Positions 3,201-50,929 of a stretch of DNA of 54,641 bases are shown here, piece by piece; position 1 is the stretch's first letter, and each line of letters starts with the position of its first letter. The stretch comes from Planctomycetia bacterium. GTDB lineage: Bacteria; Planctomycetota; Planctomycetia; Pirellulales; PNKZ01. The translations under genes were made by a program, and so were the position numbers. The DNA is taken from the NCBI GenBank assembly GCA_021413845.1, contig JAIOPP010000015.1, positions 1 through 54,641 on the forward strand. The letters run 5' to 3'. The notes under the pieces are model-generated. The model did not search any database. It had not been told where the DNA came from and saw nothing but the letters and a program-made list of their open reading frames with translations.

Positions 3201-3810
3201 GGGCTTCGATTTCCAACAAGATTGGTTCGACGCTCACTTCGAGTTCCGCTTTCCGTTCTGCGGAAAGATCGTGCAGCGCGGCGTCGAAGTCGAAATTCGC
3301 CAAGCGATCGAGCCGTGGCATGTGTTGGGCGAAGAGTCGAGCGCGTCGGGCACTTCCCGTTTCGTCGATTCTTCGGTCGAGCGGGTGCAAGTGAAAGTCT
3401 CCGGCCTGATCGATCCGCGCCACGCGATCACCTGCAACGGACGACGCGTTCCGCTACATCCGACCGGCAAGCTCGGCGAGTATGTCGCCGGAGTTCGCTA
3501 TCGTGCGTGGCAGCCGCCGTCGTGTCTGCATCCGACGATCGGCGTTCACGCGCCGCTCACGTTCGACGTCGTCGACACCTGGTCGCAGCGTTCGATCGGC
3601 GGCTGCATGTGGCACGTCGCGCATCCCGGCGGCTTGAGCTATACGACTTTTCCGATTAACGCCTATGAAGCGGAGACGCGGCGAACATCGCGGTTCTTCG
3701 CGATGGGGCACACGCCCGGAAAAATCACGGTGCCGCCCGATGAGCGCAATAAGGACTACCCGATGACGCTCGATCTTCGTCGCGATCCGGTTCGCGAATT
3801 CCCGGTCTGA
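271..3810 (+). CDS. transglutaminase-like protein fused to DUF2126
   Basis: Protein of 1179 residues. Residues about 1-85 match the bacterial transglutaminase N-terminal domain. A papain-like transglutaminase core follows with the triad visible as Cys180 (GKGSCRDSAW), His229 (DLHAW) and Asp245 (GLDPTSG). The remaining roughly 900 residues, from about 300, correspond to DUF2126 (COG4196), which normally accompanies this core. There is no signal peptide, so it probably acts in the cytoplasm. The family is linked to circularly permuted ATP-grasp ligases and alpha-E proteins, which follow immediately, so it likely hydrolyses or transfers amide bonds in a peptide-like product; the substrate is unknown. 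ATG start at 271. The family call is secure, the biochemical role inferred. Confidence 0.93.
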   Translation: MSIRVALHHHTRYHYDRPIQIMPQVVRLRPAPHCRTPIVGYSLKVTPEKHFINWQQDPHGNFLARLVFPEKSDVFSIEVDLLAELTVVNPFDFFLEPSAEKIPFKYDANSSEDLRPYLVTVPLGQKMAQFLGTISREEMRTVDYLVYLNSLVNKRVEYVVRMDPGVQTPEETLTLGKGSCRDSAWLLVQVLRELGLAARFCSGYLIQLTADVKSLDGPSGTEVDFTDLHAWTEVFLPGAGWIGLDPTSGLFAGEGHIPLAATPDPSSAAPVTGSVEPCETTFDFAMTVTRIHEDPRVTKPYTEEQWATIEKLGHQVDAEIAANDMRLTMGGEPTFVSIDDVEGDEWNTAAMGPLKRKLSGQLIRRLADKFSIGPLMHYGQGKWYPGEPLPRWSLSCYWRKDGQKIWNDLSLIAEDEAGLKHTEADAQAFVTELAGRLGVDADNAEAAYEDAWYYMWKERKLPSNVDPLKSNLADKVERDRLAKVFTQGLNKVVGYALPLARNAFGTAPGWRSGSWFLRDEHMYLLPGDSPMGYRLPLDSFPWVAPKDFPHVLPSDPFADRGPLPGRLDLPGSENWLKAYKSAGQNGTTNGYGGHAPFPQSREFLAPGMTNYASTVIRRQMNGDGGLGEHGAGAGNVALETPRLAESRTLPWPQNATIPENVVLLEQGKSAQSIVRTALCVEPRNGKLHIFMPPLEHVEDYLDLVAKLEQTAEHLKLPIVIEGYLPPHDHRLTYLRVTPDPGVIEVNLQPAASWDELVRNTTVLYDEARQTRLGTEKFMLDGRHTGTGGGNHIVLGGPTAADSPILRRPDLLRSLVGYWNNHPSLSYLFSGLFVGPTSQAPRMDEARHEAVYELETAFQQLPDAPNCPPWMTDRLFRHLLIDVTGNTHRAEFCIDKLFSPDSSTGRLGLVELRAFEMPPHARMSLTQQLLLRGLLAEFWKRPYQSPLVRWGTGLHDRFMLPHFIAEDFVDVIDDLKSAGFDFQQDWFDAHFEFRFPFCGKIVQRGVEVEIRQAIEPWHVLGEESSASGTSRFVDSSVERVQVKVSGLIDPRHAITCNGRRVPLHPTGKLGEYVAGVRYRAWQPPSCLHPTIGVHAPLTFDVVDTWSQRSIGGCMWHVAHPGGLSYTTFPINAYEAETRRTSRFFAMGHTPGKITVPPDERNKDYPMTLDLRRDPVREFPV

Positions 3811-3990
3811 GCGACGCAGCGCGGAAGCGCGAATTTACTTTCCCCGTGAAAGGGATTCGGCACCCCGCTCGCCGGCGTCGTGGTTTACACTCCGGGTCGT
3901 AAAGATTAGATTAGTGGGATGCTCGAAGAAGACGTGCGAGCCTTTCCGGTGCAGGAAGTACCGACGGGAGAGGCGGCCCAACTCGTCTTC

Positions 3991-4009
3991 GTTCGAACGC
4001 CGTTCGAAC
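3991..4009. promoter_or_regulatory. paired 8-bp palindromes, operator candidate
   Basis: Two copies of the perfect palindrome GTTCGAAC lie at 3991-3998 and 4002-4009, 11 bp apart centre to centre, which is about one helical turn. They sit 75-95 bp upstream of the ATP-grasp gene start at 4085. The spacing suits a dimeric or cooperatively bound repressor, but no regulator is identifiable. Inference from symmetry only. Confidence 0.3.
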
Positions 4010-4084
4010 GATCCGGTTTCGGAGGCGGCGATAGGTTCCGAGGCGGCGATTGGAACTCGAACGACGACACGGTAGGCGGAAGAT

Positions 4085-6658
4085 ATGAGCGTTTCGACCG
4101 AAGCCGCACCGACGCGGCCTCCGGATGACATTCTCGCCGGATACACTCCGCCGGCCGGTGTCTTCGACGAAATGGTCGACGGCTTCGGGCAGTTGCGCCC
4201 TTCTTGGAAGCGCTTCATCTCCGCGCTTGGCGAGTCGGGCAGCGAAGGGATGGTGCGCCAAGCCGACCAAGCCCGACGGTTGCTGCGCGACAACGGCGTC
4301 ACTTACAACGTCTACGGCGAGTCGCACGATGCCGAACGGCCGTGGGAGCTCGACTGCGTTCCGCTGCTGATTTCCAGCAACGAATGGAATACGCTCGCCG
4401 ACGGCCTCACGCAACGAGCCACGTTGCTGAACCTAATTTTGATCGACCTTTACGGTCGACAAGATTTGCTGAAGCAAGGCCTGCTCCCGGCGGAGCTCGT
4501 GCTCGGGCATCCCGGCTACTTGCTCCCCTGCCGCGACTTGCGCGTGCCGAACGATTGCTATCTTCATCTCTATGCGGCGCATCTCGGCCGCCGCTCCGAC
4601 GGCAGTTGGCTCGTCCTCGCCGACCGGACGCAAGGGCCTTCCGGCGCCGGCTATGCGCTGGAGAATCGACTGGTCGTCTCGCGTGTGTTGGCGGAAAGCT
4701 TTCACGAAGCGCGCGTCCGCAGGCTGGCTTCGTTCTTCAAGACGTTGCGCGAGTCGCTCTTCTCGATCGCCACGCGACACCGCGAAAATCCGCGCGTCGT
4801 GCTACTTACGCCGGGGCCATCGAGCTCGGCATACTTCGAAGACGCTTATCTCGCGCGCTACCTCGGCTACACGCTCGTCGAAGGGGGCGACCTCACGGTT
4901 CGCGACAACTCCGTGTTTCTCAAGACGCTCGGCGGGCTGCTGCCGGTCGATGTCGTCTTGCGTCGCTTACAAGACAACGATTGCGATCCGTTGGAATTAC
5001 GCAGCGAATCGATGTCGGGAGTCGCCGGGCTGCTGCAAGCGGCGCGTTCGGGCAACGTCGTCATCGCGAACGCGCTCGGCAGCGGCATGCTTGAAGCTCC
5101 CGCGCTCGCCGCGTTTCTACCGGAGCTTTGTCGTCGGGTTCTCGGCGAAGAATTGAAACTCTCCTCGGTGCCAACCTGGTGGTGCGGCCGCGAAGAAGAC
5201 CGCCGTTACGTGCTCGACAACATGTCGAGGCTGCTGATCAAGCCCGCACTGCTGCACCGCAATCGCAAAACGATCCACGGCGGCCAGCTTTCGCCCTCGG
5301 AACGGGAACGCTTAGCCGAACAAATTCGCCGCCGTCCGCATGCCTACGCGGCGCAAGAACTGATCGACCGCTCGTCGGCACCGGTCTGGACGCGCGGTGA
5401 GCTCCAGCCGCGGCATGTCGCCCTGCGCACGTTCGTCACCGCGGCCGGCGACCACTACGATGCGATGCCCGGCGGCTTGATTCGAGTCTCGGGCGACTCC
5501 AACTTGCTCGGCACCTCGATGTCGGCCGGCCAAGGCAGCAAAGACCTGTGGATCTTGTCGGACGGGCCCGTCACGCCGGTCACGCTGCTCCGCGCTCCCG
5601 ACGTACCGGTCGACCTGCGCCGCAGCGGCAACGATCTACCGAGCCGCGTTGCCGACAATATGTTTTGGTTGGGCCGGCAAATCGAACGGGCCGAAGGAAT
5701 CGTGCGGCAATGGCGCAGCGTTATTACGCGCTGGATCAGTGAATCGGAACCGGGCGGGATGTCGGAGATTCCGATCTTCTTCGACGCGCTGCTGGCCGAC
5801 TGGCACGACGAAGAGCCGGCCCGCGTTACCGCGAGCGATCCCTACCATGTCCGGTTTCAAGAGTTGCTGCGGCTGCTCTACGACGAGTCGCGCGCCGATT
5901 CCCTGCGCTCGACGATCCACTCCGTACATCGCTTGGCGTCGATCGTCCGCGATCGGCTCTCGGTCGACAGCTACCGCATTCTCAGCCAGCTGGAACGAGA
6001 GATCGGCAGCGGCAGGATTCCCGAGCAAAACACGCTGAACGAAGTGCTCGTGCAGCTCAATCAATTGATCTTCCTCCTCTCCAGCTTCAGCGGGATGGGA
6101 ATGGAGAGCATGACCCGCGGCCCAAGCTGGCGGTTCCTCGACATGGGCCGGCGCATCGAACGGGCGCAGCATACGGTTCGCCTGCTGAAAGGGACACTCG
6201 TTCGCAAACTCGTCGAGCCGGTCCCGGTGATCGAAGCCTTGATGGAAATCGCCGACAGCGCGATGACGTATCGAGCTCGCTACCTAACCTCGATTCAGCT
6301 CGCACCGGCGCTCGATCTGGTGATGACCGATGAATCCAATCCCCGTTCGGTGGCGTTTCAACTTGCGGCATTGGCCGACCATGTGAAAGGCTTGCCGCAC
6401 GACGAAGGGAAGCCGCAATCGACGCGCGAACAGCGTGTTATGCTGGCCGTACAAACGGAGCTGCGCCTCACCGATGTCGAAGCCTTATGCTCCGCCGCCG
6501 ACAACGATGGAGATCATAGGGAACTAGGCGAGTTGCTCCAACGACTCGAAAAGCATCTCACGGCCTTGGCCGAAGCGATCGCCCACACCTATCTCGTTCA
6601 CGCCGGGCCGTCGCGGCATCTCGGTCGCATCACCGTCTCCGGCGGGAACTTGCCATGA
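4085..6658 (+). CDS. circularly permuted ATP-grasp / alpha-E fusion protein
   Basis: Protein of 857 residues that joins two families usually encoded separately. Residues about 40-500 match the circularly permuted ATP-grasp type 2 domain (COG2308), a predicted amide- or peptide-bond-forming ligase. From about residue 516 (RVADNMFWLGRQIERAE) to the end is an alpha-helical alpha-E domain (COG2307). Its stop overlaps the start of the next transglutaminase gene (ATGA at 6655-6658), so the two are translationally coupled. A GGCGGAAG ribosome-binding site precedes ATG 4085. Expected role: cytosolic synthesis of a peptide-like compound or modification of a protein, coupled to the flanking transglutaminase-like peptidases. 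The product is unknown for the family. Confidence 0.92.
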   Translation: MSVSTEAAPTRPPDDILAGYTPPAGVFDEMVDGFGQLRPSWKRFISALGESGSEGMVRQADQARRLLRDNGVTYNVYGESHDAERPWELDCVPLLISSNEWNTLADGLTQRATLLNLILIDLYGRQDLLKQGLLPAELVLGHPGYLLPCRDLRVPNDCYLHLYAAHLGRRSDGSWLVLADRTQGPSGAGYALENRLVVSRVLAESFHEARVRRLASFFKTLRESLFSIATRHRENPRVVLLTPGPSSSAYFEDAYLARYLGYTLVEGGDLTVRDNSVFLKTLGGLLPVDVVLRRLQDNDCDPLELRSESMSGVAGLLQAARSGNVVIANALGSGMLEAPALAAFLPELCRRVLGEELKLSSVPTWWCGREEDRRYVLDNMSRLLIKPALLHRNRKTIHGGQLSPSERERLAEQIRRRPHAYAAQELIDRSSAPVWTRGELQPRHVALRTFVTAAGDHYDAMPGGLIRVSGDSNLLGTSMSAGQGSKDLWILSDGPVTPVTLLRAPDVPVDLRRSGNDLPSRVADNMFWLGRQIERAEGIVRQWRSVITRWISESEPGGMSEIPIFFDALLADWHDEEPARVTASDPYHVRFQELLRLLYDESRADSLRSTIHSVHRLASIVRDRLSVDSYRILSQLEREIGSGRIPEQNTLNEVLVQLNQLIFLLSSFSGMGMESMTRGPSWRFLDMGRRIERAQHTVRLLKGTLVRKLVEPVPVIEALMEIADSAMTYRARYLTSIQLAPALDLVMTDESNPRSVAFQLAALADHVKGLPHDEGKPQSTREQRVMLAVQTELRLTDVEALCSAADNDGDHRELGELLQRLEKHLTALAEAIAHTYLVHAGPSRHLGRITVSGGNLP

Positions 6659-19477: not shown

Positions 19478-19550
19478 GGGGACGTAGCTCAATTGGGAGA
19501 GCACTGCCTTTGCAAGGCAGGGGTTAGGGGTTCGACCCCCCTCGTCTCCA
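19478..19550 (+). tRNA. tRNA-Ala (TGC)
   Basis: A complete cloverleaf of 73 nt. The acceptor stem GGGGACG pairs with CGTCTCC (one G-T); the D arm is GCTC/GAGC; the anticodon stem CTGCC/GGCAG encloses TTTGCAA with anticodon TGC; the T arm is AGGGG-TTCGACC-CCCCT; discriminator A, no encoded CCA. The 3' two thirds are overlapped antisense by the end of the adjacent recombinase gene, which marks it as the likely attachment site of that element. Confidence 0.97.
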
Positions 19551-21243
19551 CTCGACGACGCTCGTTGACAGCACTTGTCAGCGAGCGTTTTTCGTTTGCT
19601 CCGTCGACACTTGCGACGTTGCGAGGTGCGGCATTCGGCCCCTTGCCGACAGGTGCCGTTTTGTCAGGCGATGACCACGATTTACTCGTTTCGTCAGCAG
19701 TTGGTGCAAACGGCGACGAACGGCAATCATGCGTCCCGGTTGCCTTTATGGCGATTCGATCCGTTTGCGGCCTATCCGATAGCGGAAGCGATGGAAGCGA
19801 ATCGAGCGCCCCGGCCACGTCAAGCAGTTTCGGATCGGTGTAAACGTTCATCGTCAGATCGATCGACGAATGGCGCATCGCCGCTTGCGCCGTGCGAGGT
19901 GCGACACCCGCCTTGCTCAACAGCGTGCCGTAGGTGTGCCGCATAGCATGAACGTCGACCGTGCGGCCCCGCTCGTCTTTCTTGGCGATGCCGGCCGCCT
20001 TCAGGTCGCGGTCGAGGATGCGAACCAATCCGGTAGGCACATTGAACAACGGAGTTTCGGCAGGCAATCGCGTCGCTGTTGTCTCTTGCTGACATAACCG
20101 CCCGTTAAAGGCTACGGCATCAAGCGTGCCGCGTTTCGACGATTGAGCGGCCTCGGTGTCGAACGGGACCGTCGGCGATTGCGTAGCGGCTTCGTAGGCG
20201 TTCGCCTTGTCGCTCACCCATGCCCGCAGGTCGTCGGCCAGATCGGACCGGAGCGGTATGTCGGACCCTTGGCGGTTCTTTTCGTCCGCGGCATGCAGCA
20301 CGACCAGCGGCGTCGGCCCGTCGAGTTCCAACTGCCCGACAGTCAGCGATGACAACTCCCCTTTACGCAGGCCGGTTAGTACCAGCGTTTTATAGATCAG
20401 GGCCCTTTCACGGCCGAGGCGTTCTAGTTCGGCCCGCACCACCGGACGCACGTTAGCAGTTAGTTCTCCCGTTCGTTTGCCGCGGCGTATCGTCATCGCA
20501 TCCATTAACGGCCGCCGGCCGGCAACTTCGAGTAGGCGCACCAATTCGGCCTCGGTCAGGGAACGTCGTTTGCGGTTCTCTCTCCCCCACGGGTCGGCTT
20601 TTGCAATCGCGGCGAACGGGTTCGAGATCATCCGACTTGTCTTCACGCACCAGTTCCCTAGCACAACCAATTCCTTCCTAAATTCGTTGCAATTGCCCGG
20701 CGACATACCTTCGGACAGCTGCCGGGTCATCCAGTGATCGAACACCGAACCGCTCAGGTCGGATAATTGCTTGAAACAACATTCGTCTGCAACCCGATTG
20801 AGCCGTTGGCGTGCATTGCTTCGGCACATTTCGCTCAGTCCGTTCGGCGCTCGCTTAGTTCGTCGGGCGATAAATGCCTCGACATGCGGCCCTAAGGGTG
20901 TCGCCTGATGATCGGCGACGGCATCCTCGGCCGAGGTCATCACGCCCGCCTTAACCAATTCCGCTCGGCGTTCGAGGTCCCAGGCCGCGGCGATCGCATC
21001 CGGATCGACACCGCCCGTCGTGCGAAAGACAGTCAGCTCGATCTCGAACAGCCTGCGGCAATCCTCGCATGCGAAGTCGGAAGGTAGTAGAATCCCGACG
21101 AAGTGTCGCGCGTGTTGCGGGCCTCGCAGCATCGCCGACACGAAGGCAAGTTCGGCCGAGCGATCGAAGTGCGGCGCGGTTTCAAGGCGGTCGGATTCGG
21201 TGAGGGGCACGTCCTCGGGCATCGGGTCATTGTCGTTCGGCAT
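19489..21243 (-). CDS. tyrosine recombinase with DnaB-N-like N-terminus
   Basis: Protein of 584 residues. ATG 21243 has AAGGAG seven bases upstream. Residues about 24-88 (start APHFDRSAELAFVSAMLRG, then PSDFACEDCRRLFEI and GGVDPDAIAAAW) follow the pattern of the DnaB helicase N-terminal domain. Recombinase similarity begins at about 89 (DLERRAELVKAGVM), continues through a core-binding domain at 113-215 and a catalytic domain with Arg293, Lys322, His432-x-x-Arg435, His458 and Tyr468, so the active site is complete. The usual arm-binding N-terminus is missing. The last about 60 residues are encoded by the tRNA terminator and tRNA-Ala antisense. Looks like a deletion fusion; the enzyme may still recombine. 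Confidence 0.85.
   Translation of the reverse strand: MPNDNDPMPEDVPLTESDRLETAPHFDRSAELAFVSAMLRGPQHARHFVGILLPSDFACEDCRRLFEIELTVFRTTGGVDPDAIAAAWDLERRAELVKAGVMTSAEDAVADHQATPLGPHVEAFIARRTKRAPNGLSEMCRSNARQRLNRVADECCFKQLSDLSGSVFDHWMTRQLSEGMSPGNCNEFRKELVVLGNWCVKTSRMISNPFAAIAKADPWGRENRKRRSLTEAELVRLLEVAGRRPLMDAMTIRRGKRTGELTANVRPVVRAELERLGRERALIYKTLVLTGLRKGELSSLTVGQLELDGPTPLVVLHAADEKNRQGSDIPLRSDLADDLRAWVSDKANAYEAATQSPTVPFDTEAAQSSKRGTLDAVAFNGRLCQQETTATRLPAETPLFNVPTGLVRILDRDLKAAGIAKKDERGRTVDVHAMRHTYGTLLSKAGVAPRTAQAAMRHSSIDLTMNVYTDPKLLDVAGALDSLPSLPLSDRPQTDRIAIKATGTHDCRSSPFAPTADETSKSWSSPDKTAPVGKGPNAAPRNVASVDGANEKRSLTSAVNERRRVETRGVEPLTPALQRQCSPN
19558..19592 (+). terminator. rho-independent terminator of the tRNA pair
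   Basis: A 13-bp stem, ACGCTCGTTGACA against TGTCAGCGAGCGT with a single G-T pair, five-base loop GCACT and a run of five T. It lies eight bases after tRNA-Ala and fits termination of the tRNA-Ile/tRNA-Ala transcript. It is also inside the antisense end of the recombinase gene. Confidence 0.9.
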
Positions 21244-21266
21244 CGAAAATCTCCTTGCGAAATCAA

Positions 21267-21818
21267 TCATTTCGTGGCTCCAAATAACTCATCGTGCGTA
21301 GTGGGATGTTGCGAGAACCTGACCGATAGGCAACGGCTCGTTGTCATACGAGTGTGGCTCGGATCTTTGTCGCGAGGCGTCTGCAGATCGTGAACGTCGC
21401 GCTGCGTCTTCGTGAGTTTGATTGATGCGACTCGCCGCCTCTGCGGGTTCTTCGCCTTGAGATCCAGCTTCGATTTGAGCCAGCCGATCGGGTTGTTCAC
21501 GGTCGGATCGGTGAGAGCCTTTTCGCGGGCCGCTAACGCGAACTCCTCGTCATCGTCGGAGCGAACGAGCCCTTTGCGGTAGCCGCGCTCACGCACGATC
21601 CATGCCCCGAACAGCGCAGGATCTGCGAGAACCTCGGAGGTCAGGTTTCCTTCCCAAGCTTCATCCAAATCGCCAGAGCAGCCAGAGCCGGTTAGCGCAG
21701 CGCGCTTGATGCTCTGGTGATTTGCAGAGCGTATTAGCTCTGGGCTCTGGTGTATTTGTGACATCGCCGTTCCGGCTGATTTTGTCACGGCTTTTTTGTT
21801 TCCTAAGTCGTGCCGCAC
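21267..21818 (-). CDS. C-terminal part of replication-initiator-like protein (frame-shifted)
   Basis: An open frame of up to 183 codons that overlaps the end of the DUF1376-like frame upstream by 158 bases. Its coding character begins around the second ATG (21764; MSQIHQ) or later, at ALTGSGCSGDLDEAWEG, and continues with a charged helical segment ending 23 bases before the recombinase start. The simplest reading is that it and the 21661-22122 frame were one gene, separated by a frameshift in 21661-21818. Two overlapping genes remain possible. No catalytic motif is visible, which fits a replisome-organiser type protein. Confidence 0.5.
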   Translation of the reverse strand: MRHDLGNKKAVTKSAGTAMSQIHQSPELIRSANHQSIKRAALTGSGCSGDLDEAWEGNLTSEVLADPALFGAWIVRERGYRKGLVRSDDDEEFALAAREKALTDPTVNNPIGWLKSKLDLKAKNPQRRRVASIKLTKTQRDVHDLQTPRDKDPSHTRMTTSRCLSVRFSQHPTTHDELFGATK

Positions 21819-22122
21819 CTCGGGTTTCGTATTCGCGCTTCATTCGGTGATTGATGATTGTGACATTGCCGTCCCGAAATGTGACATCGGCCGCAGCCGT
21901 GGCCTGGAGTTCGGTCAGCGCCGCCTCGAGTTCGAGGACCGTGCAGCGGCAAAGACGCGCCAGAATTTCTTTGCTACGCGTAGGCAGACCAGTGCGGCCC
22001 TCTTCGAACATCATGCAGAGCGCATCGAAATAGATGCCGCGCGTCGCAGGTGAACACGACGATACGGCGGGGTCTTTCAACCAATCGCCTTGATGGAACT
22101 GAGTCCAATGCTCCTTAGCCAT
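21661..22122 (-). CDS. DUF1376-like replication protein, N-terminal part
   Basis: Protein of 153 residues. The start (MAKEHWTQFHQGDWLKDP, then TRGIYFDALCMMFEEGRTG and EALLARLC-like helices) matches DUF1376-type winged-helix proteins found in phage and integrative-element replication modules. After about residue 110 the sequence becomes basic and turns into unlikely coding text (NRLWLLWRFG) before its stop, while the other frame becomes plausible. ATG 22122 has only a weak ribosome-binding site. It lies between a strong palindrome (22199-22230) and the recombinase gene. Probably helps load the replication machinery onto element DNA; likely broken. Confidence 0.6.
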   Translation of the reverse strand: MAKEHWTQFHQGDWLKDPAVSSCSPATRGIYFDALCMMFEEGRTGLPTRSKEILARLCRCTVLELEAALTELQATAAADVTFRDGNVTIINHRMKREYETRGAARLRKQKSRDKISRNGDVTNTPEPRANTLCKSPEHQARCANRLWLLWRFG

Positions 22123-22581: not shown

Positions 22582-22797
22582 TTAGACGAAGTCGCGCACC
22601 CATTGACGCGCGCTCAGCAAGCGATTGCCCAGCCGTTTCGCGCCGCCGACGCCCTTGTGTACCCAGCGGCTCAAGACCGCCGGGGCCGGCGCTTGCCCGT
22701 AAGGTTTAAGGAGATCGCGAACGGGCTCGAATTGAACGGCGCCGGCGGTTTCGACCGCCTCTGGCTTGGGTATGACGGCCGAGGGGCTAACCCGCAC
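22582..22797 (-). CDS. small helix-turn-helix-like protein
   Basis: Protein of about 71 residues from GTG 22797, which overlaps the end of the upstream excisionase-like gene by 11 bases; an ATG at 22857 would overlap it by 71. The C-terminal half (VLSRWVHKGVGGAKRLGN, then LSARQWVRDF) resembles the DUF1580/MerR-like DNA-binding proteins common in planctomycete elements, where a wHTH recognises short sites. Likely an accessory DNA-binding protein of the element. Confidence 0.55.
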   Translation of the reverse strand: MRVSPSAVIPKPEAVETAGAVQFEPVRDLLKPYGQAPAPAVLSRWVHKGVGGAKRLGNRLLSARQWVRDFV

Positions 22798-23026
22798 GCG
22801 GCACCTCGCTCCCGACGACGGTTCCGGCTTGCGTAATGAACGCGAGGAAGTCGGCACCGTGCACGAACGTGCGATTGCCGATGCGATAGCTGCGAAAGCC
22901 TTTGCGGCGGGCTTCGCGCAGGGATGATTTTGTTAGGCCGGCACGCTTAAGAAACGTGTCGATTAGATAGGCGACGTCGGATCGGATTTCGCCCGTATCG
23001 CGGCTGCTCTTCTCGGTCGCTTGCAT
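22787..23026 (-). CDS. excisionase-like DNA-binding protein
   Basis: Protein of 79 residues; ATG 23026 is preceded by AAGGGA with six-base spacing. LKRAGLTKSSLREARRKG followed by FRSYRIGNRTFVHGADFLAF is the pattern of small winged-helix excisionases (helix-turn-helix followed by a beta wing that ends in 'G..v...dl..fi'). In integrative elements such proteins direct the recombinase towards excision or regulate early genes. It overlaps the next small gene, indicating one transcript. Confidence 0.7.
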   Translation of the reverse strand: MQATEKSSRDTGEIRSDVAYLIDTFLKRAGLTKSSLREARRKGFRSYRIGNRTFVHGADFLAFITQAGTVVGSEVPRAG

Positions 23027-23817: not shown

Positions 23818-24160
23818 CAGAGCCTCAATCGTAAGTGACGAGCCGACCGATCGGAGCCGCGGCGATTGAGAACCGAAGCTCCGATCAGTCGTTCGGCGAG
23901 GATCAGTCGCCTACCCGAATCTGAACGCGCAAATTCAACCAAAAGCGCCGACTTTTTTGATTCAGACGGGGAAATCAGCGTCGTTCCGTGGTGAGTCGGC
24001 TTAAAGATGATTCACCCCACCCCTCCCTGACAACGCTTCCATTCGCAACGCAACGAGCTCCGATTTCGTTACAAATTCCGCAGCCGTATCTCCCTAATTT
24101 CCACCCGACGTTAGGGGAGGCTATAATCGCATCCCATAGTTAACCCGTGGGGAACGATTG
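23818..24160. other. intergenic boundary between element and kinase gene
   Basis: No gene seen. The stretch should contain the right end of the integrative element and the promoters of the divergent flanking genes. I found no copy of the tRNA-Ala 3' end in it. Confidence 0.5.
24099..24127 (+). promoter_or_regulatory. sigma-70-like promoter of the kinase-LamG gene
   Basis: A perfect TATAAT lies at 24122-24127, with TTCCAC 17 bases upstream as a weak -35 box. The kinase ATG is 33 bases downstream behind GGGGA. Read by eye; consensus may differ in this phylum. Confidence 0.5.
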
Positions 24161-29612: not shown

Positions 29613-29791
29613 GCGTCATTCTCGGGATAGCAGTCGGCGGCATTCCACTTGTACCGAATCGCCTTTGCAAGTCGGCAAATTAGGCCAAGTCCATTTTGCG
29701 CCGGCGGCTCGACACTCCGCAACATCTTGTGCGCTGCCGGCCGATCGGAGCGCGGTAGGTTACCGGAATCCACGAACCGGGGGCCCGCGAC

Positions 29792-49063: not shown

Positions 49064-50929
49064 ATGAATCGCACCGACTTCGTCGAGTTCATCACAACCG
49101 TCGGTATCGTCTCTTCGGACGAAGTGACGACGGTCGTAAAAAATAATCCGCAAGTAGAGTTGGACGACGCGCAAGCCCTGGCGAAGCTCTTGGTGCAACA
49201 AGAGAAGCTGACGAAGTACCAAGCGGCCGCGATTTACCAAGGCAAAGGGAAGTCGCTGGTCTACGGCGAGTATCTGGTGCTCGATCGGATCGGCGCCGGC
49301 GGGATCTACGGCGAGTATCTGGTGCTCGATCGGATCGGCGCCGGCGGGATGGGCCAGGTCTTCAAAGCGCGACACTTGCGGATGGACCGCATCGTTGCGC
49401 TCAAGGTCATGTCGCAAGCGGCGATCAAAAGCGCGGATGCGATCAAGCGGTTCGAGCGCGAAGTCCGCGCGGCAGCCAAGCTCACGCATCCGAACATCGT
49501 GCATGCCTACGACGCCGGCGTGCAAGACGGCGCGCGCTATCTCGTCATGGAATACGTCGAAGGGTGCGACCTCTCGGCCATGTTGCGGCAGCACGTGAAG
49601 TTCGAAATCAAGCAAGCGTGCGGCTTCATCGAGCAAGCCGCGCGAGGCTTCGCCGCCGCGCATGCCAAAGGGGTCGTCCATCGGGACGTGAAGCCCGGCA
49701 ACTTGCTGCTCGATAAGAGCGGCACGGTGAAGGTGCTCGACATGGGCCTGGCCCGTTTCGAAGACGGCGCGGTCGGCGGCGCGCTGCACGAAGGGGAGCT
49801 CACGCAGACCGGCAACGTGATGGGCACGGTCGACTACATGGCCCCCGAGCAAGCGCTCAACACGCATCATGCCGACGCGAAGTCCGACGTCTACGGCCTC
49901 GGCTGCACCTTCTATCGCGTCCTCACCGGCGAGCCGGTCTACGGCGGCCAGACGCTCGTCGAGAAGATTCTCGCGCATCGCGAGCATCCGATCCCGACCG
50001 TCCGCAAGCTCCGGCCCGAAGCGCCCCCGGCCCTCGACTTGCTGCTGACCCGCATGCTCGCCAAGAGCCCGACCGATCGGCCGACGATGCAAGAGGTCGC
50101 CGACACGTTGGCGGAACTCGACTACGCAGCCGACGGCAGCGGCGGCGGCGGTTACGCCGTGTCACAGGAAGCGCCCGCTCCCGCGATGTCGTTTCCGCCT
50201 CAGACGTTCGGCCAGTCGCTTCCCCCCTCGACCACGATCGGGCCCGGTGTCCTCTCGAAGGCCGCGGTGGTGCCGAAGACTACGAAGAAATCCAACGCGC
50301 CGCTGCTCATCGGCGCAGGCAGCGCCGCCGTCGTCGTCGTCGGAATCGCCTCCTTCCGCAACGCGCGCTGCGACCTCGCCCCCTCCCTCGGTATCCATTT
50401 CCAACGTGACATCGACGTCGAACACGACGAACTCCAATTCGAATTCGCCGCCGCGAGTGAACAGTCCACCGGTCTTCACAGGGGTCGTGACCAGCACTCC
50501 GGAAGTTCGAGTCGCCGATCCGGAGATCGAACGCCGAGCGGCGATCAAAGTGTTGGAGTTGGGGGGGAGCGTCTTCGTCATGGCTCCCAACAGGTCCGGC
50601 GTTCAAGTTCAAAGTCTCGCGAACCTTCCTACCTATCAGTTTGCCGTCAACTCCATCAATCTGAATCGGAGCCAAGCGACCGACAAGGATCTGGAGAGTT
50701 TTCTCGGCTTGGCGCACCTCTATTCGCTCGACCTTTATTACACGTCGGTCTCGGATGCAGGTCTGGATACGATCAAGACGCTGACCACGCTCCACGTCTT
50801 AAATCTCAATGGCGGCGCCGATCGCATTACCGACGCCGGCGTGCAAAAGCTCGATACTTTGCGAAGGCTCACTTCGCTGATGTTGAACAACACGAAGGCG
50901 ACGGGAGCGGCTGCGCGCGAGCTTCATAA
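49064..50929 (+). CDS. serine/threonine protein kinase with duplicated glycine loop; frame lost after the membrane helix
   Basis: Coding through about 50354, after which the frame continues to 50929 as low-complexity nonsense. Residues 1-65 resemble the N-terminal segment of the kinase at 24161. The glycine-loop strand YGEYLVLDRIGAGGI (67-81) is repeated exactly at 82-96 (ending GGM), caused by a 45-bp tandem duplication. The rest is intact: Lys114 (IVALKVM), HRDVKPGNLL, DMGLARFE, MAPEQAL. A membrane helix follows (APLLIGAGSAAVVVVGIA). The LRR tail is in another frame from about 50355. ATG 49064 lacks a clear ribosome-binding site. Confidence 0.85.
   Translation: MNRTDFVEFITTVGIVSSDEVTTVVKNNPQVELDDAQALAKLLVQQEKLTKYQAAAIYQGKGKSLVYGEYLVLDRIGAGGIYGEYLVLDRIGAGGMGQVFKARHLRMDRIVALKVMSQAAIKSADAIKRFEREVRAAAKLTHPNIVHAYDAGVQDGARYLVMEYVEGCDLSAMLRQHVKFEIKQACGFIEQAARGFAAAHAKGVVHRDVKPGNLLLDKSGTVKVLDMGLARFEDGAVGGALHEGELTQTGNVMGTVDYMAPEQALNTHHADAKSDVYGLGCTFYRVLTGEPVYGGQTLVEKILAHREHPIPTVRKLRPEAPPALDLLLTRMLAKSPTDRPTMQEVADTLAELDYAADGSGGGGYAVSQEAPAPAMSFPPQTFGQSLPPSTTIGPGVLSKAAVVPKTTKKSNAPLLIGAGSAAVVVVGIASFRNARCDLAPSLGIHFQRDIDVEHDELQFEFAAASEQSTGLHRGRDQHSGSSSRRSGDRTPSGDQSVGVGGERLRHGSQQVRRSSSKSREPSYLSVCRQLHQSESEPSDRQGSGEFSRLGAPLFARPLLHVGLGCRSGYDQDADHAPRLKSQWRRRSHYRRRRAKARYFAKAHFADVEQHEGDGSGCARAS
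49261..49350 (+). repeat. exact 45-bp tandem duplication in the kinase glycine loop
   Basis: 49261-49305 and 49306-49350 are identical (start CTACGGCGAGTATCTGGTGC, end GGCGGGAT) and in frame, adding 15 residues. No base differs, so it is recent or a sequence artefact. Confidence 0.97.

Follow-up and report, generated by a model that had tools for sequence, protein, structure and literature searches.

An open reading frame of 584 amino acids in a planctomycete genome begins like the N-terminal domain of the helicase DnaB (DnaB-N) and continues as a tyrosine recombinase. The locus raises the question of whether this fusion is genuine, how its two parts were brought together, and whether the product can still serve a mobile element. 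The window, which here means the whole stretch of 54,641 nucleotides analysed, belongs to a 7.1-Mb draft genome of 167 contigs. The DnaB-N/tyrosine recombinase fusion was confirmed in the frame at 19489-21243 (minus strand). The reading that we prefer, at a probability of roughly two in three, is that of a core-competent recombinase without arm-site binding, situated in an eroding element at a tRNA-Ala gene and carrying its DnaB-N part as a passenger.

Organization of the fused gene and position of the joint

The frame ran from 21243 to 19489 on the minus strand without an internal stop. The ribosome-binding site AAGGAG was read directly from the letters at 21251-21256 (minus strand), 7 bases 5' of the ATG at 21243, which bore out the strong start signal claimed in an earlier sequence-only reading of this DNA. 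Relatives of both sources were identified as separate genes on other contigs of the same genome. One was a stand-alone DnaB-N gene (C29; L037 8728-8174, minus strand) encoding 184 amino acids and directly following a complete dnaB gene. The other was a sister integrase of 603 amino acids (C26; L038 7836-9647), which has an 88-residue N-terminus ahead of a linker starting at residue 89, after 'MGTVYRKSFTKPLP...', and which was 73% identical to the fused protein from residue 77 on.

Comparison with these genes, together with profile matches and conserved alignment columns, divided the frame into successive parts, all on the minus strand. The DnaB-N segment (residues 1-88; 20980-21243) was defined by a profile match and by comparison with C29, to which it was 91% identical over 87 residues, and residues 26-86 were identical in amino acids. 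It was followed by a linker (residues 89-107; 20923-20979) with 92-93% nucleotide identity to the C26 sister. The core-binding segment with the start of the catalytic domain (residues ~108 to ~280-290; 20374-20922) was delimited by nucleotide comparison, and the catalytic domain (residues ~291-480; 19804-20373) by nucleotide comparison and conserved columns.

DNA alignment placed the joint between codons 88 and 89 (20980/20979), the window following C29 up to '...GCCGCGGCCTGG' and C26 from 'GACCTCGAACG' on; the earlier estimate that the recombinase starts at about residue 89 was thus exact. The joint was in frame, with ~2-3 nt of shared sequence as judged by eye against diverged relatives. Homology to C29 extended 5' of the start codon, by 14 bases in one alignment and by ~45 in another, gapped one. 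The first 88 codons thus stem from a stand-alone DnaB-N gene and run in frame into the linker of a tyrosine recombinase that targets tRNA genes. The event was probably illegitimate, either a deletion or recombination between elements. Deletion within one element and recombination between two are indistinguishable here, because both sources have their relatives elsewhere in the genome, on separate contigs. The sequence-only reading had explained the chimera by a deletion in an ancestral order rep-dnaB-int; the in-frame chimera stands, while the closest donor is the stand-alone 184-residue protein rather than the N-terminus of the adjoining helicase, and the deletion is one of two possible routes.

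The joint might also be an assembly artefact in which a DnaB-N gene was wrongly connected to an integrase gene, a reading that the 167 contigs of the draft and the occurrence of the joint in a single genome would favour. The DnaB-N core, however, differed from C29 by 12 synonymous changes, the integrase differed from C26 in ~22% of bases (78% identity over 1450 bases), and the C29 homology began 5' of the start codon and stopped at an in-frame joint. Since both halves are distinct in sequence from the C29 and C26 genes, misjoining of those two genes is ruled out, and an assembly artefact of any kind appears improbable.

Identity and completeness of the DnaB-N half

When residues 1-96 were scanned alone, the PF00772 match covered residues 27-87, corresponding to positions 5-65 of the 103 in the profile, and scored 24.8 bits against a cut-off of 23 (E 2.2e-5). 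This profile search of the isolated N-terminus, suggested as a check by the sequence-only reading, agreed with the DnaB-N pattern that it had recognised at residues 24-88. In the whole fused protein the score was 22.9 bits, slightly below the cut-off of 23, and the alignment extended to residue 103 (profile position 79), into the linker. PHROG 19 (DnaB-like helicase) matched residues 1-96 with E 0.0014 and the whole protein with E 0.016, and an NCBIfam search of the fused protein returned a helicase model at E 0.1 only. Among the loci compared, the sole matches of residues 1-88 were the DnaB-N protein of C29 and helicases of the DnaB type; the DnaB helicases of other genomes found by the N-terminus alone shared 33-39% identity over 61-63 amino acids. 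A PDB sequence search with residues 1-95 gave nothing useful. In a Foldseek search with the model of the stand-alone protein, DnaB structures ranked first, but with E >=0.04 and rmsd >8.

The narrow Pfam score, slightly below the cut-off in the whole protein, would suit an ordinary divergent arm-binding domain that resembles DnaB-N by chance. The C29 gene, which directly follows dnaB and whose product covers PF00772 positions 5-101 of 103, in addition to its 91% identity to the fused N-terminus, effectively refutes such a coincidence. Moreover, the sister integrase had no DnaB match at E 0.1, and the arm-binding-type regions of 18 relatives were mutually alike and unlike the fused N-terminus; we give this reading hardly any weight.

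The domain was incomplete in the fused protein. The predicted structure of the stand-alone DnaB-N protein (mean pLDDT 75) contained 8 helices, at residues 29-40, 43-49, 61-77, 82-91, 99-110, 112-125, 129-143, and 147-183. Helices 1-4 of these were retained in the predicted fused protein, where the fourth passed the joint uninterrupted into the linker as a helix at 81-98. The pLDDT of the fused-protein model was 54-65 over residues 31-80, partly because two sequences only cover that part. The complete DnaB-N domain with its C-terminal helices was absent, and DnaB_C, the RecA-like ATPase domain present in the C29 dnaB, gave no match in the fused protein. The stretch aligning with the helical hairpin of DnaB was also missing. 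In DnaB, this hairpin is the part that contacts primase.

These losses bear on the proposal, made from the sequence alone, that the recombinase is tethered to the replisome through contacts of DnaB-N with primase or with the DnaB hexamer. The identity of residues 1-88 as DnaB-N is all that speaks for it. With 4 of the 8 predicted helices left and the hairpin stretch gone from among the later ones, we consider such a tether very unlikely. Apart from this, the 184-residue C29 protein (L037 8174-8728, minus strand) is itself a DnaB-N protein without a helicase domain, and as a guess it might act as a helicase-loading or inhibitory subunit.

Recombinase half and loss of the arm-binding-type region

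The fused protein matched PF00589 (Phage_integrase) with E 6e-13. The catalytic residues R293, K322, H432, R435, H458, and Y468 each fell in a column of the family alignment conserved at >=90%, so that the R-K-HxxR-H-Y set read from the sequence was indeed intact. The predicted fold aligned with the core of lambda integrase (1z19) with Z 14.6 over 251 residues and rmsd 5.2; this alignment spans residues 111-507 only and is uninformative on the N-terminus.

The family alignment comprised 18 full-length single-frame relatives in addition to the window. Duplicates of the same gene were left out of it, as were the broken or partial L003, L005, L016, L017, L018, L020/L053, L048, L051, and L060 and the distant L021, L023, L030, and L033; L064 was not aligned. 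A conserved N-terminal region extending to the linker 'DLERRAELVKAG' was present in all 18 aligned relatives and in 5 of 5 further relatives from a search of the phylum, i.e., in 23 of 23, and was visibly borne by L020, L048, and L051 as well. In the fused protein this family region was absent and DnaB-N stood in its place, with the linker kept. None of the 23 full-length relatives shared the fused protein's N-terminus; orthologues with that N-terminus and no helicase origin would have counted against the chimera.

Judged by these comparisons, the replaced part corresponds to residues 1-88 of the sister, an arm-binding-type region, and its loss from the fused protein was secondary, as the family has one. 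The label 'arm-binding' follows from the position of the region and the scheme in PMC8138268; the C26 sister gave no Pfam arm-binding match. In that work, Smyshlyaev and colleagues describe the arm-binding domain of element-borne tyrosine recombinases as essential to their mobility function, and count simple recombinases in 27 phages and 12 ICEs compared with 410 and 211 for the arm-binding type (PMC8138268).

Mosaic structure of the integrase family

Identity between the window and the C26 sister was uneven along the recombinase. In 20-codon windows, nucleotide identity was 92% at residues 89-108, fell to 45-68% between residues ~109 and ~281, reaching 0.75 at 272-291, and was 92-98% over most of ~302-481, with a dip to 68-83% near residues 362-401. 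The corresponding dS rose from 0.37 for the linker to 1.9 for the core-binding segment and was 0.68 and 0.21 for parts of the catalytic domain. For the core-binding domain of the window, L012 was the best relative (44%), and the C26 sister was outside the first six. This segment is best read as swapped in by recombination from an origin other than that of the sister's.

Among 171 alignment pairs, 5 passed a cut-off of 80% nucleotide identity in residues 396-480: window/L002, L009/L041, L063/L065, L046/L052, and L056/L019. L062/L065 was added by hand because the N-termini looked identical. L009 and L041, both in G010, were 92% identical in the arm-binding region, 60% in the core-binding domain, and 84-87% in the catalytic domain, with a break as in the window and its sister. 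L062 and L065 shared 99% identity ahead of the linker and 55-75% in every later segment. L063/L065 showed a milder dip (54%) amid generally lower values, and L046/L052 and L056/L019 were without a sharp break. Identity thus fell sharply just past the linker in 3 pairs (window/C26, L009/L041, and L062/L065), and breaks also occurred inside the catalytic domain in the window and in L009/L041. The DnaB-N joint lies at the upstream edge of the linker, and the recombination breaks of the family lie just downstream of that linker.

The target tRNAs differed within L009/L041 (Ala-CGC and Ala-TGC) and within L062/L065 (Gly-CCC and Pro-GGG); the target of the window was Ala-TGC, and the C26 sister was without a recognised tRNA. 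A tie between segment exchange and change of target tRNA is only suggestive, because L056/L019, without a sharp break, also differed in target (Met-CAT and Arg-CCG).

The tRNA-Ala site and the state of the element

The last 63 nt of the fused gene overlapped, in antisense, a tRNA-Ala (TGC) gene at 19478-19551 (plus strand), the presumed attachment site, and the frame ended within the tRNA. Such an antisense overlap with a tRNA gene, of 47-77 nt, was present in 17 of 19 aligned family members; the frame of the integrase ended within the tRNA in 16 of them and ran through it in L065. Through this overlap, ~15-25 C-terminal residues are encoded by the target tRNA.

A second tRNA end was sought in the window, and no repeat of >=18 bases and no 19-base match with <=3 mismatches was found. 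Matches of 11 bases to the tRNA were at chance level (5 seen, ~3.2 expected). One of them, at 29661, corresponds to the tRNA anticodon arm and could represent a short second attachment core; the second site could be outside the contig, short, or lost.

Upstream of the fused gene, an ORF at 21661-22122 (minus strand) resembled DUF1376/primosomal proteins, with matches to PF07120 (E 1.7e-5; 25.5 bits against a threshold of 30.1) and PHROG 9327 (E 7e-5). The replication-like character that the sequence-only reading had ascribed to the upstream gene is in line with these matches, though both are below threshold. By eye, another ORF at 21267-21818 (minus strand) resembled the second half of the same replication-type gene in a different frame, and the two ORFs represent either one frameshifted gene or two overlapping genes. 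The second half had no relatives in 295 other genomes and the first half none in the 6 other genomes searched, so that breakage is unproven. A small HTH_17-like ORF at 22787-23026 (minus strand; sub-threshold match) was also present, a possible excisionase.

Integrase remnants were identified at the same tRNA-Ala in congeners. That of G003 was split between two frames (residues 407-530 and 538-584), and G002 had a shorter one (residues 533-584). At the same gene in G001 and G005, only the last 24 and 20 residues were present, which is essentially the tRNA itself. The tRNA-Ala site seems to have been used repeatedly, its elements decaying.

Sequence constraint on the two halves

Over residues 26-86, the window and C29 differed by 12 synonymous and 0 non-synonymous changes (dS 0.31). 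Over catalytic residues 396-480, the amino acids were 100% identical to those of the sister at a dS of 0.21. With fewer than ~3 amino-acid changes over the 136 non-synonymous sites of residues 26-86, any period of free drift of the fused copy is limited to ~7% of the total divergence. The fusion would therefore be either young or under selection, the DnaB-N core in the latter case being still constrained.

Tests for selection that treated the recombinase as one unit (leave-one-out conservation, a tree, and a three-taxon codon model) were set aside because the recombined segment breaks their assumption of a single history. Several branch lengths were also at their bounds, and per-segment counts were used instead. 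Counting against constraint, the window deviated in the conservation test at 6 of 19 conserved core-binding columns, the highest share (sister, 3 of 18), but at 2 of 99 conserved catalytic columns. In the pooled codon model, omega was higher on the window branch (0.22 against 0.07; 2 x delta lnL ~8), and the per-domain fits were without a raised omega (0.08 against 0.06 and 0.09 against 0.06); a neutral window branch was worse than a free one in 3 of 3 fits. The equal end branches of the recombinase tree (0.23 and 0.22) were dropped for the same violation.

Search for the fusion in other genomes

A search for the same fusion elsewhere, another check that had been proposed, found it in one genome only. 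With the whole protein as query, there was no second fusion among the matches listed from 97 genomes of relatives. None was found in 396 genomes of the order (query residues 1-113; 13 with any match), in 392 genomes of the phylum (query residues 1-128; 13 with any match), or in 387 genomes of the class (52 with any match). These four sets overlap, and the source genome is included in them. In the order, phylum, and class searches, all frames with matches starting before query residue 71 were read, the others starting at or after residue 71, in or near the linker. A genome-contig collection contained at least 7 relatives, all with matches starting at residue 81 or later and none fused among the matches listed, in which the named relatives were planctomycete records. 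Viral contigs, phage records, and plasmid records yielded no second fusion; these collections and the genome-contig one may lack the window's own genome. Judging by titles, none of the papers found on fusions of DnaB with integrases or recombinases and on planctomycete elements reported such a fusion.

Several candidates were rejected. The match in L054 was by chance and in a wrong-looking frame, and that in L088 was a sulfatase-like protein. L055, L057, L079, L083, L086, and L087 were DnaB helicases, and L077, L078, L080, L081, and L082 were integrases with a normal N-terminus. In G850, DnaB-N was joined to what by eye is a P-loop replication-type protein, not an integrase. A 622-residue protein in L115 (2136-4004, plus strand) has a DnaB-N-like start followed, by eye, by an apparent P-loop replication-type domain.

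Predicted function and relation to known recombinases

In the preferred reading, the fusion is recent and the predicted product consists of a DnaB-N stub, the linker, the core-binding domain, and the catalytic domain. Such a protein could still bind its core sites and cleave them, whereas without arm-site binding directional integration and excision would be inefficient, and the element would consequently be stuck beside tRNA-Ala. Its mobility would be impaired because arm-site binding was lost. The lack of a second tRNA end in the window, the apparently split upstream gene, and the remnants in G002 and G003 are taken as signs of erosion. On the other side, the reading frame has no lesion, the unbroken predicted helix at 81-98 would fit a workable protein, and the match at 29661, though at chance level, could be a short attachment core. 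If the fusion is not recent, the data for residues 26-86 and 396-480 would also mean continuing selection on both halves, which counts against a crippled element.

The same observations could instead point to a functional replacement, in which the stub is a new multimerisation or regulatory module and the protein acts like a 'simple' recombinase. The arm-binding domain would then have given way, in a single step, to a helical module of helicase origin, with helix joined to helix at the recombining linker of the family, leaving a working recombinase. The intact frame, catalytic set, and ribosome-binding site fit this, as do the lack of any amino-acid change across 26-86 and 396-480 despite synonymous divergence, the join that falls exactly on a domain edge and leaves the predicted helix unbroken, and the existence of simple recombinases in 27 phages and 12 ICEs (PMC8138268). 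Nevertheless, the fusion was found once in the genomes searched, its DnaB-N domain is truncated, the N-terminal fold is predicted with a pLDDT of 54-65 over residues 31-80 from two covering sequences, and no second attachment site was found within the window. We regard both the replacement and its one-step exchange as unlikely, if less so than an assembly artefact. If true, it would be a natural domain swap redefining integrase assembly or regulation.

Like arm-binding-domain tyrosine recombinases (PF00589), whose relatives occur across many planctomycete genomes, the fused protein has the linker, the core-binding and catalytic domains, the R-K-HxxR-H-Y set, and the overlap with a tRNA; it differs from them in having a DnaB-N fragment for the arm-binding-type region. 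Compared with the C29 DnaB-N protein (PF00772), which its residues 1-88 closely resemble, the fused copy is truncated past the fourth of eight predicted helices and joined to a recombinase, and compared with DnaB it is without the helicase C-terminal domain. Simple tyrosine recombinases, consisting of core-binding and catalytic domains, are likewise without an arm-binding domain, and TnpR-type recombinases have an unrelated helical N-terminal extension, DUF3701, where the extension of the fused protein is DnaB-N (both as classified in PMC8138268).

In archaeal chimeric integrases of the pT26-2 type, parts are likewise exchanged by recombination between related elements, and the exchange has been proposed to switch target specificity (PMC8371274). 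Those are split 'suicidal' genes in which N and C moieties are exchanged (PMC8371274), whereas the planctomycete family breaks at the linker between the arm-binding region and the core-binding domain.

Because a single genome contains the fused gene together with its unfused sister and a gene closely related to the donor, the joint, its frame, and its timing are directly readable, and the fusion is a natural test of whether an integrase without its arm-binding domain keeps activity. The wider mosaic pattern, in which closely similar arm-binding/linker or catalytic pieces stand beside strongly diverged core-binding segments, may matter more than the fusion itself. How integrases gain new specificities is described as incompletely understood (PMC8371274), and a mosaic tRNA-targeting family could make the acquisition of specificity testable.

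Two further features were noted. A perfect 45-nt tandem duplication lies at 49260-49349 of the window, in a region resembling the kinase-like gene at 24158. In addition, L037 encodes a 654-residue protein (3650-5614, plus strand) apparently made of two successive tyrosine-recombinase units, in which Phage_integrase matched two stretches and SAM-like core-binding models matched at residues 54-124 and 341-429.
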